A stretch of 64,000 nucleotides of DNA, from NCBI RefSeq assembly GCF_030816935.1, contig NZ_JAUSYO010000001.1:930001-994000 (forward strand). The letters are read 5' to 3'. The notes beneath the pieces are model-generated. The model did no database searches. It worked only from the letters and a program-made list of their open reading frames with translations, and was not told the origin of the DNA. Made by a program: the position numbers and the translations under genes. This document shows positions 42,956-51,240 of the stretch, one piece after another (position 1 is the first letter of the stretch; each line of letters starts with the position of its first letter). The stretch is from Arthrobacter sp. B3I9. Its GTDB lineage: Bacteria; Actinomycetota; Actinomycetes; Actinomycetales; Micrococcaceae.

Positions 42956-43248
42956 GGACATGCCCTCCGCTCACGCCTAGGAGTGGACATATCCCGTGGT
43001 CACGGGCCTGAAGACTGGGCATGTTCTCCCGCTGCGTCCAGGGATGGGCATCATGCCATTGTGCCCGTTGCTCGCGGCAAGGACTGGGCTTGCCCCGCGC
43101 TCGCGGCAAGGACTGGGCTTGCCCCGCGCTCGCGGCAAGGACTGGGCATGCCCCGCGCTCGCGGCAAGGACTGGGCATGTCCCGTGACGATGCGCGCCAA
43201 GACTGGGCATGTCCAGCGGCGGTCACAGCTTAGGAGCCTGCCCAGTCC
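42956..43248. repeat. Intergenic array A of GGGCATGYCC-centred repeats
   Basis: The 360-bp gap between the oxidoreductase and purD genes is filled with variants of the motif AAGGACTGGGCATGYCCCG. Three adjacent 29-bp units start at 43079, 43108 and 43137, with further copies at 43166 and 43199 (29- and 33-bp steps). Looser copies lie at 43013 and 43046. On the left, GGACATGCCC (42956) and GGACATATCC (42985) are in the opposite orientation, as is TGCCCAGTCC (43239). The core GGGCATGCCC at 43144-43153 is a perfect palindrome. Spacing is close to three helical turns. Open frames across the array are by-products of its periodicity. Confidence 0.85.
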
Positions 43249-44581: not shown

Positions 44582-45538
44582 ATGACCGGCTCCGATTCCT
44601 CCCTGTCCGGCGACGCGCCGAAGGGCCTGGATACCGCCACCCTGGAGCTGCCGGGCTGGAAGCACGTCTACTCCGGCAAAGTCCGGGACCTGTACGTTCC
44701 GGCGGATGAGGCCATCACCGAGCGGATGGGACGCGACTGCGTCCTGGTGGTGGCGAGCGACCGGATCAGTGCCTTCGACCATGTCCTCGCCAGCGAGATC
44801 CCGGACAAGGGCCGCATCCTCACCCAGCTGAGCCTCTGGTGGTTCGACCAGCTCGGCGTGGAGCACCACGTGCTCGCGTCCACGGTCGACGGCGGTGTCC
44901 CCGCCGCTGTGGAGGGACGGGCGATGATCTGCAAGAAGCTGGACATGTTCCCCGTCGAGTGCATCGCCCGCGGCTATCTCACCGGCTCCGGACTCGCGGA
45001 ATACCGGCAGACCCGCACGGTGTGCAGCATCGCGCTGCCGGAGGGCCTCGTCGACGGATCCCGGCTCGACCCGGCGATCTTCACGCCTTCGGCCAAGGCC
45101 GAGGTGGGCGAGCACGATGAGAACATCACCTACGACGCCGTCGTTCAGATGGTGGGCGACGACGTCGCGGCGCGGCTGCGCGAGCTCACTCTGGAGATCT
45201 ACACCAAGGCGGAGGCCACCGCGCGGGGCCGCGGCATCATCCTGGCCGACACCAAGGTGGAGTTTGGTGTGGACGCCGCCACCGGCGCCATCACCCTTGG
45301 CGACGAGGTGCTGACCCCGGACTCCTCCCGGTTCTGGGACGCAGCCACCTACGAGCCCGGCCAAGCCCAGCCGTCCTACGACAAGCAGTACGTCCGCGAC
45401 TGGCTGACCTCGGCCGCGTCCGGCTGGGACAAGTCCTCCGACGTGCCCCCGCCTCCGCTGCCGGCCGACGTCGTGGCCCGCACACGGAGCCGCTATGTCG
45501 AGGCCTACGAAAAGCTCACGGGCCGGACGTTCGTCTAG
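44582..45538 (+). CDS. purC: Phosphoribosylaminoimidazole-succinocarboxamide synthase
   Basis: This 318-residue SAICAR synthetase ligates aspartate to CAIR in purine synthesis. The VYSGKVRDLY start motif, VVASDRISAFDHVLASEIPD and the FPVECIARGYLTGSGLAEY block are diagnostic, as is the LADTKVEFGVD metal site. It is in an operon with purD (2-bp gap). It is convergent with the XRE-TPR gene, 8 bp away. Confidence 0.96.
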   Translation: MTGSDSSLSGDAPKGLDTATLELPGWKHVYSGKVRDLYVPADEAITERMGRDCVLVVASDRISAFDHVLASEIPDKGRILTQLSLWWFDQLGVEHHVLASTVDGGVPAAVEGRAMICKKLDMFPVECIARGYLTGSGLAEYRQTRTVCSIALPEGLVDGSRLDPAIFTPSAKAEVGEHDENITYDAVVQMVGDDVAARLRELTLEIYTKAEATARGRGIILADTKVEFGVDAATGAITLGDEVLTPDSSRFWDAATYEPGQAQPSYDKQYVRDWLTSAASGWDKSSDVPPPPLPADVVARTRSRYVEAYEKLTGRTFV

Positions 45539-45545
45539 CCTGCTG

Positions 45546-46814
45546 CTAGGCTTCGGCCGACGCGGCAGCCGCGGCGCGGCGCTGCGCCAGCCGGATTTCC
45601 AGCACGGCATCCATGGCCTGCTGGACCCGGTCGGAGGCGCCGGCGGCGCTGAACTCTTTCTGGGCCTCCTCGAGGTAGACGAGGGCATCGGACGCTTCCC
45701 CGGCGGCTTTGAGGGCCTTTCCCAGCAGCAGCGACACCTCCCCGGCGGTGTGCTGGGCCAGTGCGTCGCGCTCGGCATGGATCTCGCGGAGCTTCTGTAC
45801 GGCCGCGACAATGTCACCGGTCAGGTAGAGCCAGCGGGCGCGGATGAACGCGACCTCGAGCTCGTCCGTCCGGGTGCCGCCCACGATCGAAAGCGCCAGC
45901 TCGGCCCGTTCGATCGAGGACAGGGTCTCCGGTTCGACAATCCCGGAGGACAGCCGGACGGCGGCCGACGCCTTATTGAACCGTGCCCAAAGATCGATGT
46001 CATTGGCGGGGGAGAGCAGCCTGGCGGCGCGCTCGTGATACTTGACCCCTTCCGCATAGTCGTGCCGCATGAAGGCGACATTCCCGATGACCCAGGCGAC
46101 TTCGCCGGCGAGCTGCGTCATGGAATGCTCGTTCATCCGCTCGTTCATGTCCTGGCAGTACTCCCAGGCCTCATCGAGCCGGCCGCTCTCGGCCAGGGCG
46201 CCAATGAGCGCCCGCAGCGCGCCGATGATCATCGTCGAGTCCTGGGGCAGTCCGGCGCAGAGGCGTACGGCCTCCTGCGCGTGGCTGACGGCGGTGGTCA
46301 GCTGCCCCTGCCCCTGTGCGGCCGCGGCGAGCATCTGCTGGGCCCTGACGCCCAGCCCGGCCGATTCCGCGGCCATGGGGTGGTCCAGCAGGTGCTGGAC
46401 GACGTTCTTGCACTCCTGCCACAGCCCCTGCTTGATGAGGCATTCGGCCTGCATGTACGTCATGTTCCACCAGGCGCTGGTGTTTTTTGCGTCCTGGGCA
46501 ATACGGGCGGCGGCCGCGGCGTGGGTTGCCGCCACCGGATAATCGCGGAGATCCCAGGCCTGCCTGGCATACAGTCCGGCGAGGACATACTCCGCGTCGC
46601 TCACGGACACGGGCTGGCTCCAGGCCTCCAGTGCTTTGGGTGCGAGTTCGAGCCTGTGGGCCAGCTCCTCTATGACGTCCGCGGTCGGCTCGCGGCGCCC
46701 GGTTTCCAGCAATGAGATGTAGCTGGGTGAGTACAGGTCCTTGCCCAGCTCCGCCTGGGTCAAGCCCCGATCCAGCCGTTCCGCGCGGAGCTTTTCCCCA
46801 AATCCGTTCCCCAC
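45546..46814 (-). CDS. XRE-family regulator with TPR domain (putative peptide receptor)
   Basis: The protein has 422 residues. The HTH is at about 5-60 (RLDRGLTQAELGKDLYSPSY, ISLLETGRREPTADVIEEL). From about 75 to 410 it is all helical, with repeated TPR-like pairs (AWWNMTYMQAECLIKQGLWQ; VAWVIGNVAFMRHDYAEGVK; RARWLYLTGDIVAAVQKLRE). This is the architecture of RRNPP receptors such as PlcR, Rgg and NprR, which bind short secreted peptides in the TPR groove. GTG 46814 has AGGAGG 6 nt upstream. It is divergent, over 127 bp, from a secreted precursor with three identical octapeptides, so a cognate receptor-pheromone pair is the favoured reading. Peptide binding is not proven. Confidence 0.88.
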   Translation of the reverse strand: MGNGFGEKLRAERLDRGLTQAELGKDLYSPSYISLLETGRREPTADVIEELAHRLELAPKALEAWSQPVSVSDAEYVLAGLYARQAWDLRDYPVAATHAAAAARIAQDAKNTSAWWNMTYMQAECLIKQGLWQECKNVVQHLLDHPMAAESAGLGVRAQQMLAAAAQGQGQLTTAVSHAQEAVRLCAGLPQDSTMIIGALRALIGALAESGRLDEAWEYCQDMNERMNEHSMTQLAGEVAWVIGNVAFMRHDYAEGVKYHERAARLLSPANDIDLWARFNKASAAVRLSSGIVEPETLSSIERAELALSIVGGTRTDELEVAFIRARWLYLTGDIVAAVQKLREIHAERDALAQHTAGEVSLLLGKALKAAGEASDALVYLEEAQKEFSAAGASDRVQQAMDAVLEIRLAQRRAAAAASAEA

Positions 46815-46853
46815 GGACGCCTCCTAATCCCGGACAATCTTTGTACTAAATCC

Positions 46854-46893
46854 TTGACAGGCTCTGTGGAAATCATTTTACAATGTGTGTCAA
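46854..46893 (+). promoter_or_regulatory. Promoter and dyad upstream of the repeat-peptide gene
   Basis: A perfect -35 TTGACA (46854-46859) and a TACAAT -10-like box (46879-46884, 19-bp spacer) precede the peptide gene. TTGACA forms a dyad with TGTCAA at 46888-46893 flanking the -10 region, and ACAA-N3-TTGT lies just upstream (about 46834-46844). The region is AT-rich compared with its flanks. A regulator bound here could control both divergent genes. Confidence 0.5.
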
Positions 46894-46941
46894 CAAGCTA
46901 GTGCCGATTTGTTTAAGACCCGACCCCTAGTGAGGATCTCT

Positions 46942-47160
46942 ATGTTGAAGAAGATAGCAGCCGGTGCCGTTCTGGCCGGCGCCCTGGCTTTCTCCGCGGC
47001 GGCTCCGGCTGTTCTGTCCGCCGCCACCATCGCCGACAACGCAGGCATCACGGCAGTCGGCAACTGGCCGGATCCGATGAAGGCGCCGCAGGCGGTCGGC
47101 AACTGGCCGGACCCGATGACCAACTCCACCAACGTCGGCAACTGGCCTGATCCCATGTAG
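46942..47160 (+). CDS. Secreted repeat peptide precursor (three VGNWPDPM units), putative pheromone
   Basis: The protein has 72 residues. A Sec signal peptide (MLKKIAAGAVLAGALAFSAA, cleavage near residues 27-28) is followed by a short spacer and three copies of VGNWPDPM at residues 39-46, 52-59 and 65-72, separated by five-residue linkers KAPQA and TNSTN. The last copy ends at the stop codon. The copies use different synonymous codons (GAT/GAC, CCG/CCT/CCC), so the peptide sequence, not the DNA, has been conserved. ATG 46942 has GAGGA about 7 nt upstream. Length and layout fit a multi-copy propeptide that is cut to release a small signal. It is followed by a strong terminator, so it is monocistronic. 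Confidence 0.88.
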   Translation: MLKKIAAGAVLAGALAFSAAAPAVLSAATIADNAGITAVGNWPDPMKAPQAVGNWPDPMTNSTNVGNWPDPM

Positions 47161-47177
47161 CTCTTCAGCCAGGCGTG

Positions 47178-47225
47178 ACAGCCCCGGGACATGCGCAAAC
47201 CATGTCCCGGGGCTGTTTCTTTTTG
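47178..47225 (+). terminator. Strong terminator of the peptide gene
   Basis: A 16-bp perfect stem (ACAGCCCCGGGACATG, 47178-47193, with its complement at 47201-47216) and a 7-nt loop are followed by TTCTTTTT. The stem contains the CGGGACATG core seen in the intergenic repeat arrays. Confidence 0.92.
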
Positions 47226-47299: not shown

Positions 47300-47376
47300 T
47301 GGTCGGGATGACAGGATTTGAACCTGCGACCTCGTCGTCCCGAACGACGCGCGCTACCAAGCTGCGCCACATCCCG
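47300..47376 (-). tRNA. tRNA-Pro(CGG)
   Basis: The minus strand folds into a full cloverleaf: acceptor CGGGATG/CATCCCG, D stem GCGC/GCGC, anticodon stem CGTCG/CGACG with loop TTCGGGA (anticodon CGG) and T arm with TTCAAAT. The discriminator is A and CCA is encoded. The length with CCA is 77 nt. Confidence 0.95.
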
Positions 47377-47499: not shown

Positions 47500-49329
47500 T
47501 CACACCAGCGAATCCCGCCATGCCCCGTGGAGCCTGGCGAAGCGCCCGCAGCCGCCGATCAGCTGCTCCGGCGTTCCGTCCTCGACCACGCGCCCGTCGT
47601 GCACCACCAGGACCCGGGCGGCGGTCTCCACCGTGGACAGCCGGTGCGCGATGATGAGCGCGGTCCGGCCGTCGTGGCTGCCGTTGCCCTGCAGGAGCCG
47701 GGCAAGGCCGTTCTGCACGAGCCGTTCGGACGGGATGTCCAGCGAGGACGTCGCCTCATCGAGGATCAACACGGCCGGGCGCGCCAGGAAGGCCCGGGCG
47801 AAGCTGATCAGCTGGCGCTGCCCGGCGGAGACCCGGCCGCCGCGCTTGTTGACGTCGGTGTCGTAGCCCTCCGGGAGTTCCTGGATGAACTCGTGGGCCC
47901 CCACGGCCCGGGCGGCATCCTCGATCTCCTGCCGCGAGGCCTCGGGCCGGCCCAGGGCGATGTTGTCCGCCACGGAGCCGCTGAACAGGAACGCCTCCTG
48001 GGTGACCATCACGATGTTCCGCCGCAGGTCCGCCGTCGCGAGCTGGCGCAGGTCGACGCCGTCGAGCGAGAGGGACCCGGAGGTGACGTCATAGAACCGG
48101 GCAATGAGCTTGGCGAGGGTCGATTTGCCGGCTCCGGTCTGGCCGACCAGGGCCACGGTCTGGCCGGCGGGGATGTGCAGGTCCAGGGTCGGGATGACCA
48201 CCGGACCGTCACCGTAGCGGAATTCAACCCCGCTGAAGTCGATGGTGCCCTTCGCGTCGCGGAGTGCCACCGGGTTCTCGGGCGGCCGGACGGTGGGGAT
48301 TTCCTCCAGCAGGCCGGACACCTTCTCCAGCGCGGCCTGGGCGCTCTGGAAGGAGTTGTAGAACATCGCCATCTGGTCGACGGGCTGGAAGAAGCGTTTG
48401 GTGGACAGGATCAGGGCCAGCAGCACGCCGACGGCGAGCTCCCCGCCCAGCACCCGGAAGCCGCCGAAGAGCAGCACGACGGCGACGCAGACGTTGCCGA
48501 TCAGCACCAGGCCGGGCTGGAAGATGCCGTTGAGGTTGATCGACCGGACGGTGACCTTGCGGTAGTCGTCGGCGAGTTCCGAGTAGCGGGCCGAGTTCTC
48601 GCGTTCTTTGCGGAAGGCCTTGACGGCGCGGATGCCGGTCATGGTCTCGACGAAGTGCACGATCAGCCGAGCGGACACCACGCGCGATTCGCGGAAGACT
48701 ATCTGGGAGTGGTTCTGGTACCAGCGGGCCAGGAAGTACATCGGAACGCCTGCTGCCAGCACCAGCAGGCCGCTGCGCCAGTCCAGGGCGAACACCGTTG
48801 CGGCCGTGAACACCATGAACAACAGCCCGGACGCGAGGGAACTGACCCCGGAGTCCAGCAGCTCCCGGAGGGCCTCGAGGTCCGAGGTCTGCCGGGCGAT
48901 GATCCGCCCCGAGGTGTACTTCTCGTGGAACTCCAGGCTCAGCCGCTGCGTCTGCCGGAAAACCCGGACGCGCAGGTCGAGCAGCATCGCCTGGCTGAGC
49001 TTCGCCGTCGAGGTCACATACAAAGCCGTGAGGCCCGCGGTCGCGAGGGCGGCCGCAAGGTAGGAGGCACCGGTGAGCGCCAGCGGGAGGCTGTCACCGG
49101 CCCGGAGGGCGGGGAGGGCCCGGTCGATGCCGAAGGCGATCAGCGCCGGGCCTGCCGCCCGCGCCGCCTGGGACAGCACGACGGCGGCGATGGTCAGCCA
49201 GAAGCGGCGGAGGACCGGCCGGATCAAGGACCGCAGCAAGGCCAGGGAGCGGCGCCGGACGGTCCTGCTCTCGCTCTTGGACAGGTGCGCGTTGTCCTCG
49301 TTTGCGGTGCCGAAAGTGGCGCTGCTCAT
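47500..49329 (-). CDS. ABC exporter subunit, canonical NBD
   Basis: This 609-residue half-transporter has six membrane helices (about 40-320) fused to an NBD. Walker A is [13 protein letters not shown], the signature is [14 protein letters not shown] (with S-A-G-Q in place of the usual SGGQ) and Walker B is [12 protein letters not shown] with the catalytic Glu present. It starts with ATGA overlap on the upstream half-transporter gene, so the two form a heterodimeric exporter. Substrates are unknown; the class includes multidrug exporters. Confidence 0.9.
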
Positions 49330-51173
49330 CGGGAGATCTCCTCCGCGTCGAGGTCTGACAGGTCCGGGTCGTGCAGTTCCGAGTCCAGGTCCCGGGGCTC
49401 GGGGTCCAGGCTGGCGATGACGTAGCGGTAGTGGCTGTCCCGCGCCAGCAGCTCGGCGTGGGTCCCGACGGCGGCGATCCGGCCGTCCTTGAGAAGCGCC
49501 ACCCGGTCCGCCAGCGCCACGGTGGACGGGCGGTGGGCGACGATCAACGTGGTGGTGTCCGCAAGGACCTCCCGCAGCCTGTGCTCGACCCGTTCCTCCG
49601 TGTTGACGTCCAGAGCGGACAGCGGATCGTCGAGGACCAGCACCTTGGGGCGGGCAGCGATGGCGCGGGCCAGGGCGATGCGCTGGCGTTGGCCGCCGGA
49701 GAGGCTGAGTCCTTCCTCGCCGATCAGCGTGTCCACCCCGTCGGGCAGCGAGTAGGCGAAGTGGGCCTGCGCGACGTCGAGCGCTTCTTCCAGCGCCTCG
49801 TCGCGGTTCGCTTCCTCGCGGTGCGCCTCCGAGCTGGCGCCCGGGGCGCCGAGGAGGACGTTGTGCCGCACCGAACTGGAGAACAGGGTGGTGTCTTCGA
49901 AGGCCACTGCGACGACGGTGCGCAGTTCCTCGACGCTGAACTCGCGCAGGTCCACGCCGTCGATCGTGATCGCGCCGGCAGTCACTTCGTAGAGCCGGGG
50001 GACCAGCTGGAGCAGCGCGCTTTTGCCGCTGCCTGTGATGCCGACCAGCGCCATGGTCTCACCCGGTGCGATGTCCAGGGTGATGTCCTTGAGGATCGGC
50101 TTGTCCGGGGCGTCCTGGAAGGCGAAGGCAACGTTGCGGAAGCTCACCGCGCCTTTGAGCACGTCGGGACGGCGCGGGTCCTCGGGGCTGGTGATGGTGT
50201 TCATTGCGTCCATGACCTCGTAATGGCGGTCGATGGCAGTCTTGGCGGTAAGTGCCATGGCCAGCAGCATGCCGCAGAACTCGACCGGTGCGGCAATCAC
50301 GGCGGCGGTGGCGAAGAACGCCACGAGGGATCCGATGCTGAGATCTCCGTTGGAAGCCAGCAGCACGCCGACGACGAGTCCGGAGCCGAGGGCGAGCTCG
50401 GGCAGCAGGGTGACCACCAGGCTGAAGACGGCCAGGTGTTTTGCTTTGGCGATCTCGGTCTGGCGGAGCTCTTCGGCCTGTTCGTTGAAGTTCTCCAGCG
50501 CCTCCCGGCTGCGGCCGAATGCTTTGAGGACCCGGATGCCGTGCACGGACTCTTCAACCGTCGTGGCAAGGTCCCCGGCTTGGTCCTGGCTGCGGCGTGC
50601 CACCTTGCTGTACCGGGTGCGGAAGCGGAAGCCGTAGATCATGATCGGCACCGCGGCGGCGAGGAAAATCAGGGCCAGCTGCCAGCTCATCGAGAACATC
50701 ACGACGACGCCGATCACCACGGTCAGGGTGGTGACCACGAGCATGATGGCGCCGAAGGCCATCCAGCGGCGCAGGAAGTTCAGGTCTGTCATGGCGCGGG
50801 AGAGCAGTTGGCCCGATCCCCAGCGGTCATGGAAGGACACCGTGAGGTCCTGCAGGTGGCCGTACAGGGACACCCGCATCCGGGTCTCCACCGTTGTGGC
50901 CGGGTTGATGACAAACTGCCGCCGGAGCGCCACCAGGCCGGCCTCCGCCACACCCAGGCCAAGGATCACGAGGGAGGCGCTCCAGACCGCATCGGCGCGC
51001 CCGCCGGGACGGAGGGATTCATTGACCAGGACGCGGAGGACCTGCGGGATGGTGAGGGCCACGACGCTGGCGAGCAGCGCGCTGAGCAGGCCCAGGACGA
51101 GTCGCGGCAGGATCGGCCTGACGTGCGGGTAAAGGCGGCTGATGGAAGAGAAAAAGGGAGTCTGCGTGGCCAT
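49326..51173 (-). CDS. ABC exporter subunit, degenerate NBD
   Basis: This 615-residue half-transporter has six membrane helices (about 20-300) and an NBD. Walker A is [13 protein letters not shown] and the signature [15 protein letters not shown] is canonical. Walker B reads [12 protein letters not shown], with Asp replacing the catalytic Glu, as in the non-catalytic half of heterodimeric exporters such as TM287/288 and BmrCD. ATG 51173 is the preferred start; a longer frame to 51236 has no ribosome site. A dyad at 51220-51240 lies in its promoter region. Confidence 0.9.
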
Positions 51174-51219
51174 GCCTGCTTCTTCAAACGTACCTGCGGA
51201 GTATCTAACGCAACTGGAT

Positions 51220-51240
51220 GTAGTTTCCTGTAGCAACTAC
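51220..51240. promoter_or_regulatory. MarR-like dyad before the ABC exporter operon
   Basis: GTAGTT-N9-AACTAC is a perfect 6-bp dyad 47 bp upstream of the exporter start, overlapping a second AACT...AGTT pair. Arms of this kind occur in MarR-type operators of drug exporters. No MarR gene is adjacent in the window. Confidence 0.4.

Follow-up and report, generated by a model that had tools for sequence, protein, structure and literature searches.

A putative peptide-pheromone module of an XRE-TPR regulator and a divergent Trp-Pro repeat precursor in Arthrobacter

Introduction

A divergent gene pair in Arthrobacter sp. B3I9, coding for an XRE-TPR regulator and a short precursor that repeats the octapeptide VGNWPDPM, is proposed to be a peptide-pheromone module that works like the RRNPP systems (probability about 0.8). 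The pair lies in a stretch of 64,000 nucleotides, referred to here as the window, of which receptor, promoter and precursor together occupy 1.7 kb. RRNPP systems have been described in Bacillota and in the mobile elements of that phylum (PMC12700828, PMC9765709, PMC10075063), and one of these papers presents actinobacterial signals as typically small molecules and peptide sensing by intracellular TPR proteins as a Bacillota trait (PMC10075063). An earlier note on this DNA knew of no described system of this type in Micrococcaceae; in agreement with it, searches of the open PMC literature found no actinobacterial RRNPP-type system.

Results

Organization of the locus

The regulator and precursor genes are divergent, with 127 bp between their two start codons. 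Their coordinates and ORFs match the 422-residue HTH-TPR regulator and 72-residue divergent precursor that the earlier note had described. The features of the locus, in window positions, are as follows.

44582-45538: purC, flanking the receptor side of the locus
45546-46814, minus strand: XRE-TPR regulator (receptor), 422 aa, GTG start, from ORF reading
45552-46604, minus strand: predicted TPR superhelix, residues 71-421, from the helix list of an AlphaFold2 model
46623-46802, minus strand: HTH domain, residues 5-64 (PF13560 E 5.9e-11, PF01381 E 4.5e-10, above cut-off)
46845-46902: inverted arms ACTAAATCCTTGACA / TGTCAACAAGCTAGT around the conserved block, 73% complementary and 28 nt apart, candidate operator
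46853-46896, no strand assigned: conserved block CTTGACAG.CTCTGTGGAAA.CATTTTACAATGT.TGTCAACAA, kept across 70 distinct sequences
46854-46859 and 46879-46884: putative promoter, TTGACA and TACAAT with a 19-bp spacer, by eye
46942-47160, plus strand: putative pheromone precursor ORF, 72 aa, from ORF reading
46942-47022, plus strand: Sec-type leader with a putative cut after ..AVLSA, from the sequence by eye
47056-47079, plus strand: VGNWPDPM copy 1, from the sequence
47095-47118, plus strand: VGNWPDPM copy 2, from the sequence
47134-47157, plus strand: VGNWPDPM copy 3, abutting the stop codon, from the sequence
47177-47217, plus strand: terminator-like hairpin and T-run (scan: 1 found, 0.4 expected in shuffles)
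47303-47376: tRNA gene (Pro), flanking the precursor side of the locus

Because the hairpin lies directly 3' of the precursor ORF, the precursor looks monocistronic. The genes that follow it, tRNA-Pro and an ABC pair, are on the opposite strand. The names purD, purC, ABC and EAL were assigned by a gene scan, in which the four neighbours are purD, purC and two ABC half-transporters. The latter two are adjacent (window 47500-51236, beyond the tRNA) and show no sign of membership in the system. A 29-bp tandem array of 4-4.8 copies (window 43070-43214, 92-97% match) has its end at the earliest start that the purD ORF could use; text resembling it was seen by eye near L002:1120-1320.

Selection on the repeated peptide

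The precursor starts with MLKKIAAGAVLAGALAFSAAAPAVLSA... and carries VGNWPDPM at residues 39-46, 52-59 and 65-72. Inspection of the spelling of the three copies, GTCGGCAACTGGCCGGATCCGATG, GTCGGCAACTGGCCGGACCCGATG and GTCGGCAACTGGCCTGATCCCATG, upheld the earlier note's statement that they are exact, that the last ends at the stop codon and that they differ only synonymously. For the precursors of the genus as a whole, [VIT]G[NI]WP[DNY]P[MAV] is a better formula for the core; across the family, Trp-Pro is the constant element, a place taken in many further lineages by a C-terminal Cys-Cys. Leaders were called with a home-made hydrophobicity score. Some precursors read ..VSA/IGNWPDPM (the slash marks a cut placed by eye), in which case the putative leader cut would free the N-terminus of the first copy directly.

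To compare the copies, 219 repeat units with 108 distinct DNA spellings were collected from the window's gene and those of 80 named loci (81 in all) with the pattern G.WP.P, which fixes G, W, P and P and leaves more degenerate copies uncounted. The free positions are near-constant (Asp in 219, Asn in 216 and Met in 214 of the 219 units), the residue before the unit is Ala in 128 of the 219, and the spacers between copies are variable. Between copies within one gene, the codon differences across the 81 genes amount to 502 synonymous against 21 nonsynonymous. The conservation of the repeat across genes excludes chance, and these counts, read at the level of sequence, establish the claim of the earlier note that selection acts on the peptide.

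The peptide also switches between species, with GNWPDPM, ..PDPA, ..PDPV, ..PNPM and GIWPDPM as its 7-mers; the receptor tree requires 7 changes of pherotype. Of the 117 distinct receptors compared, 112 are accompanied by a multi-copy precursor, and in 106 of these 112 one 7-mer is common to all copies; the six exceptions comprise five genes whose last copy deviates and one in which the copies are mixed. (For this comparison 21 identical receptors were merged, and the pairs L165 and L406 were left out, the start pattern having missed the receptor.) The shared 7-mers reveal concerted pherotype switches. If the peptide is released and sensed, just this would be expected: copies that are constant in protein, drift in DNA and change in concert.

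Alternatively, the small ORF might encode a Sec-monitoring arrest peptide or serve as an attenuator leader, since it shares with SecM-like arrest peptides a leader followed by a conserved proline-rich motif. The terminator-like hairpin directly after the ORF and the opposite orientation of the next genes speak against such a role, as does a motif that is repeated one to four times with copies that change together, and we regard it as very improbable.

Conservation of the pair in the genus

The receptor is found in 101 of 101 genomes of the genus, although three of them (G053, G073, G093) have no more than fragments of it. In 81 of the 101, the DNA matches an exact pattern for GNWPDPM. The loci of the other 20 genomes were read, and in 20/20 a divergent precursor with a changed core is seen: GNWPDPA in 9, GNWPDPV in 6, GNWPNPM in 3, GIWPDPM in 1 and, in the last, one degenerate unit, SGNWPYPV. 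Both copies carry the identical variant core in 19 of these 20. Counting loci that were read and motifs located up to about 400 bases upstream of a receptor, the precursor stands beside the receptor in at least 89 of the 101 genomes; the remaining 12 have two or more motif matches each. In another set, which has some overlap with the first and comprises 80 named Arthrobacter, Pseudarthrobacter and Paenarthrobacter loci (the best 80 of 298), a precursor with one to four copies is present at 80/80 loci (79/80 with a stricter filter). The receptor-linked precursors read in the genus keep a Sec-type leader. The receptor had no match in phages, plasmids or viral contigs; the system is chromosomal.

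The shared intergenic region

The conserved block between the two genes holds the putative promoter, which a promoter scan with 16-18 bp spacers did not list. With up to 2 mismatches, the core of the block occurs once per genome in 31/31 genomes, always at this locus, and the same pattern read backwards, used as a control, gave 1 match in the 31 genomes. A precursor is present at 30/30 loci around the block. Since no second operator-like site was found within 2 mismatches in 31/31 genomes, no regulon is visible; nor did a 21-base form of the core, allowing as many as 6 mismatches, turn up at the TPR-only locus L002 or near any of the orphan precursors L112-L119. The single site agrees with a role in controlling the divergent pair itself and points to no further targets.

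Structure of the receptor

For the window's regulator, TPR matches in Pfam are below cut-off. An AlphaFold2 model from 26 sequences (mean pLDDT 81.6, pTM 0.63, with the HTH part lower) has paired helices over residues 71-421, which are read as eight TPRs and a C-terminal cap. The A helices of TPR superhelices line the concave face. Across 28 diverse receptors, the residues W241, N245, W276, N280 and R287 are near-invariant on the A helices of the model, and N245 (93% of the aligned receptors) and N280 (96%) are both placed on the concave TPR face. An asparagine in the pocket is a common RNPP feature, less clearly so for ComR, according to PMC5131902. Within the genus, A-helix columns are less variable than B-helix columns (mean entropy 0.22 over 137 columns versus 0.67 over 123); across the family, this contrast is small (mean conservation 0.59 versus 0.50, 28 sequences).

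The earlier note had suggested a test for co-variation of the repeat with the TPR groove. Within the genus, none of the receptor columns follows the pherotype more closely than common descent would explain, and the differences run along clades. One candidate marker, Val for Ile at residue 257, recurs with several non-GNWPDPM pherotypes and was rejected, since the window's own receptor combines Val with GNWPDPM.

Fold matches of the model include RapH, PlcR, NprR and Rap, but TPR proteins unrelated to PlcR and NprR (those of LGN, APC/C and CRL2) rank equal or higher; the matches therefore support a peptide-binding TPR groove in general, as modelled, and not RRNPP ancestry. Comparison with the PDB by phmmer gave PlcR (residues 5-57, E 0.038) and ComR (4-56, E 0.34), in the HTH only, and a match to Lmo0325 (4ryk, E 0.012). 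The NsdA family model (NF053720, cut-off 75 bits) gave no match to the window's regulator at E up to 1.

Spread beyond the genus

In a search of the family, a match was found in 96/197 genomes and 22/32 genera, some of them HTH-only. The associated peptides depend on the genus and include VGNWPDP[SAFT], VGIWPNS, PGNWPD[SGA], FVGNWPDAV and VWIWPD[SA], as well as VG[DEN]WPH (up to nine units), VNNWP[YG], NNNWP[FL], LIDDWPH and others. Ten loci were read from a second family of the order (L230-L239): four have a secreted WP precursor (for example TVGGSWPTSQDP in three copies), two a leaderless ..ARGDWP and four none. In the class, XRE-TPR receptors occur in 78/296 genomes (E up to 1e-15, the window's relatives counted in). 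Many distant receptors have a secreted ORF of 40-55 aa that ends in CC, with WPGMCC and NWPKCC as bridging forms, and many distant loci have a single C-terminal motif in place of repeats. Protein names place distant receptors in Streptomyces, Micromonospora, Kitasatospora and Streptosporangium. In a Streptomyces-like clade, 1 of 8 rows has a precursor (L265, DIGWP in two copies), and along its whole length the L265 receptor shows full identity with a protein of Streptomyces ficellus. By sequence similarity, then, the receptor class is not confined to Micrococcaceae, and in the sample read outside that family many receptors stand alone.

To control for the pairing, 314 receptor ORFs were reduced at 75% identity to 116 clusters, 112 of which are flanked on either side by 300 bp or more. 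Small ORFs scored as positive when they passed the leader score and had WP in the last 16 residues or CC in the last 6. Such an ORF is located divergently upstream in 52/112 clusters (WP 37, CC 17), compared with 3/112 co-directionally upstream, 1/112 co-directionally downstream and 7/112 convergently downstream. Six of the seven convergent matches are of the CC type, several of them ..WCC, and could be genuine precursors that lie downstream of their receptor. The test is weaker when the leader score is dropped (ORFs ending near WP: 51/112 divergently upstream versus 16, 16 and 30), which indicates that the leader carries much of the signal.

The earlier note had named homologues that consistently lack a nearby repeat peptide as what would refute it. 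In the genus the outcome was the opposite, with a precursor at 80/80 named loci; counting against the note's reading, 60 of the 112 clusters have no WP or CC secreted ORF divergently upstream. Sixteen precursor-less receptor loci read by hand gave nothing convincing. Six purC-linked receptors with no detectable precursor (L061, L063-L066 and L132, five of them read by hand) form one clade, in which loss or listening only is possible. On the receptor tree (built with FastTree; weakly rooted, its branches long) precursor presence versus absence needs 23 changes, so that loss, or receptors that listen without speaking, is common. WP versus CC type needs 1 change once rows that have both types, no type or a leaderless peptide are excluded, and peptide type roughly matches receptor clade in these sequences. 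At 15 of the loci that represent the 116 clusters, the purD-purC synteny is found again.

Some distant receptors resemble the NsdA family, named for a Streptomyces regulator, with matches to NF053720 that are all below cut-off (L346 E 4.9e-11, L269 1.2e-8, L334 3.2e-8, L354 8.1e-5, L355 3.6e-4). The loci L346-L349 place the receptor also in genomes of about 1.5-2.2 Mb, with a secreted ..CC ORF at three of the four and ..WCCDAIPA at one, and may point to signalling in small genomes. At L354 and L355, where the NsdA-family similarity is weak, similar divergent secreted ORFs have neither WP nor CC and are possibly a third peptide type.

TPR-only paralogues

The window's genome, like many others of the genus, also contains a paralogue that lacks the HTH (G000:C1:3686580-3687560), with a divergent secreted ORF whose C-terminus is AVNWWPNSTPKN. 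At the TPR-only loci fetched from other genomes of the genus, a secreted Trp-Pro precursor is present in 20/20, with GWWP in 15 and up to five copies. The TPR-only receptors of Micrococcaceae group on the tree (22 rows, 21 with a WP peptide, by eye).

These paralogues bear on a second alternative, in which the repeated peptide is an effector (an antimicrobial, a RiPP or a surface peptide) whose production the XRE-TPR protein merely controls. The single operator-like site per genome would suit this, as the precursor may be the regulator's only target, and multi-core precursors have precedent among RiPPs. Yet a tailoring enzyme is absent from the four neighbours scanned, among which purD-purC recur as noted above, and the peptide type roughly tracks the receptor clade. 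A simple regulator model also leaves unexplained why HTH-less paralogues keep a divergent precursor in 20/20 cases. An effector role is accordingly judged quite unlikely, and a sensed peptide remains the preferred reading.

Leaderless precursors

At L077, L078, L081 and L083, in two genera, leaderless ORFs of 21-40 aa with GDWP-type C-terminal cores replace the secreted precursor beside HTH-TPR receptors. Other leaderless ORFs are orphans. Those of L115 (G063) and L116 (G020) alternate RIGNWPDPM with RIGWWPD[AL]M, and at the TPR-only loci of the same two genomes (L431 and L430) the secreted peptide ends in IGWWPD; both peptides are thus present in one cytosolic ORF. Further leaderless GNWPDPM orphans lie far from the receptor (L112, L113, L117, L118, L119), the shortest being MNRIGNWPDPM. 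The neighbours of the orphans (TenA, MarR, a histidine kinase, a nuclease and, at L115, a glycosyltransferase) have no common theme.

The peptide could accordingly be read inside the cell that makes it, as a self-sensing of export, growth or proteolysis, and not between cells. Both kinds of leaderless ORF, those with the same core beside receptors of two genera (L077, L078; L081, L083) and the orphans elsewhere in genomes of the genus (L112, L113, L115-L119), would agree with this. For a purely cytosolic ligand, however, the Sec-type leader that the receptor-linked precursors of the genus keep would be needless, and self-sensing is considered unlikely.

Discussion

The earlier note's RRNPP-like reading gains support from the leader, the tandem identical copies and their concerted change, the shared promoter region and the fit of a TPR superhelix. 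In the mechanism proposed for signalling between cells, the precursor would be exported by Sec and its leader taken off by signal peptidase, and proteases would then free the [V/I]GNWPDPM copies or a shorter Trp-Pro core. The peptide would be taken up via an oligopeptide permease; the window's genome has nine SBP_bac_5 peptide-binding proteins, which are common (11/14 control genomes) and permissive only for such import. Inside the cell, the peptide may dock in the concave groove of the receptor's TPR superhelix, and the peptide-bound receptor would alter the action of its HTH on the shared divergent promoter. Peptide and receptor would so form a feedback loop through that promoter.

The module shares with the RRNPP/RRNPPA receptors (Rap, Rgg, NprR, PlcR, PrgX, AimR) an XRE HTH with a TPR superhelix, or a TPR part only as in Rap, and with their propeptides an adjacent small secreted gene, a C-terminal pheromone and tandem copies, of which up to six are reported in PMC9765709. 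Unlike those systems, it belongs to Actinomycetota, is chromosomal and divergent, has Trp-Pro or Cys-Cys peptides, keeps purD-purC synteny at 15 loci and, in the phmmer comparison, shows sequence similarity in the HTH only. The NprX peptide of NprR-NprX, SKPDIVG, has no Trp-Pro core, in contrast to the peptides found here; the same is true of the PapR7 peptide of PlcR-PapR, ADLPFEF. As in LCP/RopB, the leaderless forms at L077, L078, L081 and L083 are short peptides beside a TPR regulator, but here such forms are a minority and share their G[DN]WP core with the secreted ones.

A wider reading, to which we give even odds, is that Actinomycetota own a large chromosomal class of peptide receptors, from relatives of Arthrobacter to Streptomyces and small-genome lineages, with Trp-Pro and Cys-Cys dialects, parallel HTH-TPR and TPR-only channels, species-level pherotype switches and leaderless two-channel precursors (RIGNWPDPM/RIGWWPDAM). 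If this is true, the two-channel precursors could let a cell feed its own receptors from inside. Corresponding gene pairs in numerous relatives point to a peptide language in a phylum for which the open literature searched yielded no system of this type. Direct experiments on how peptides govern the behaviour of actinobacteria would become possible with such a pair, which is testable, belongs to the core of a soil genus and has counterparts in other orders: its putative ligand is short, and natural variants of it are catalogued.
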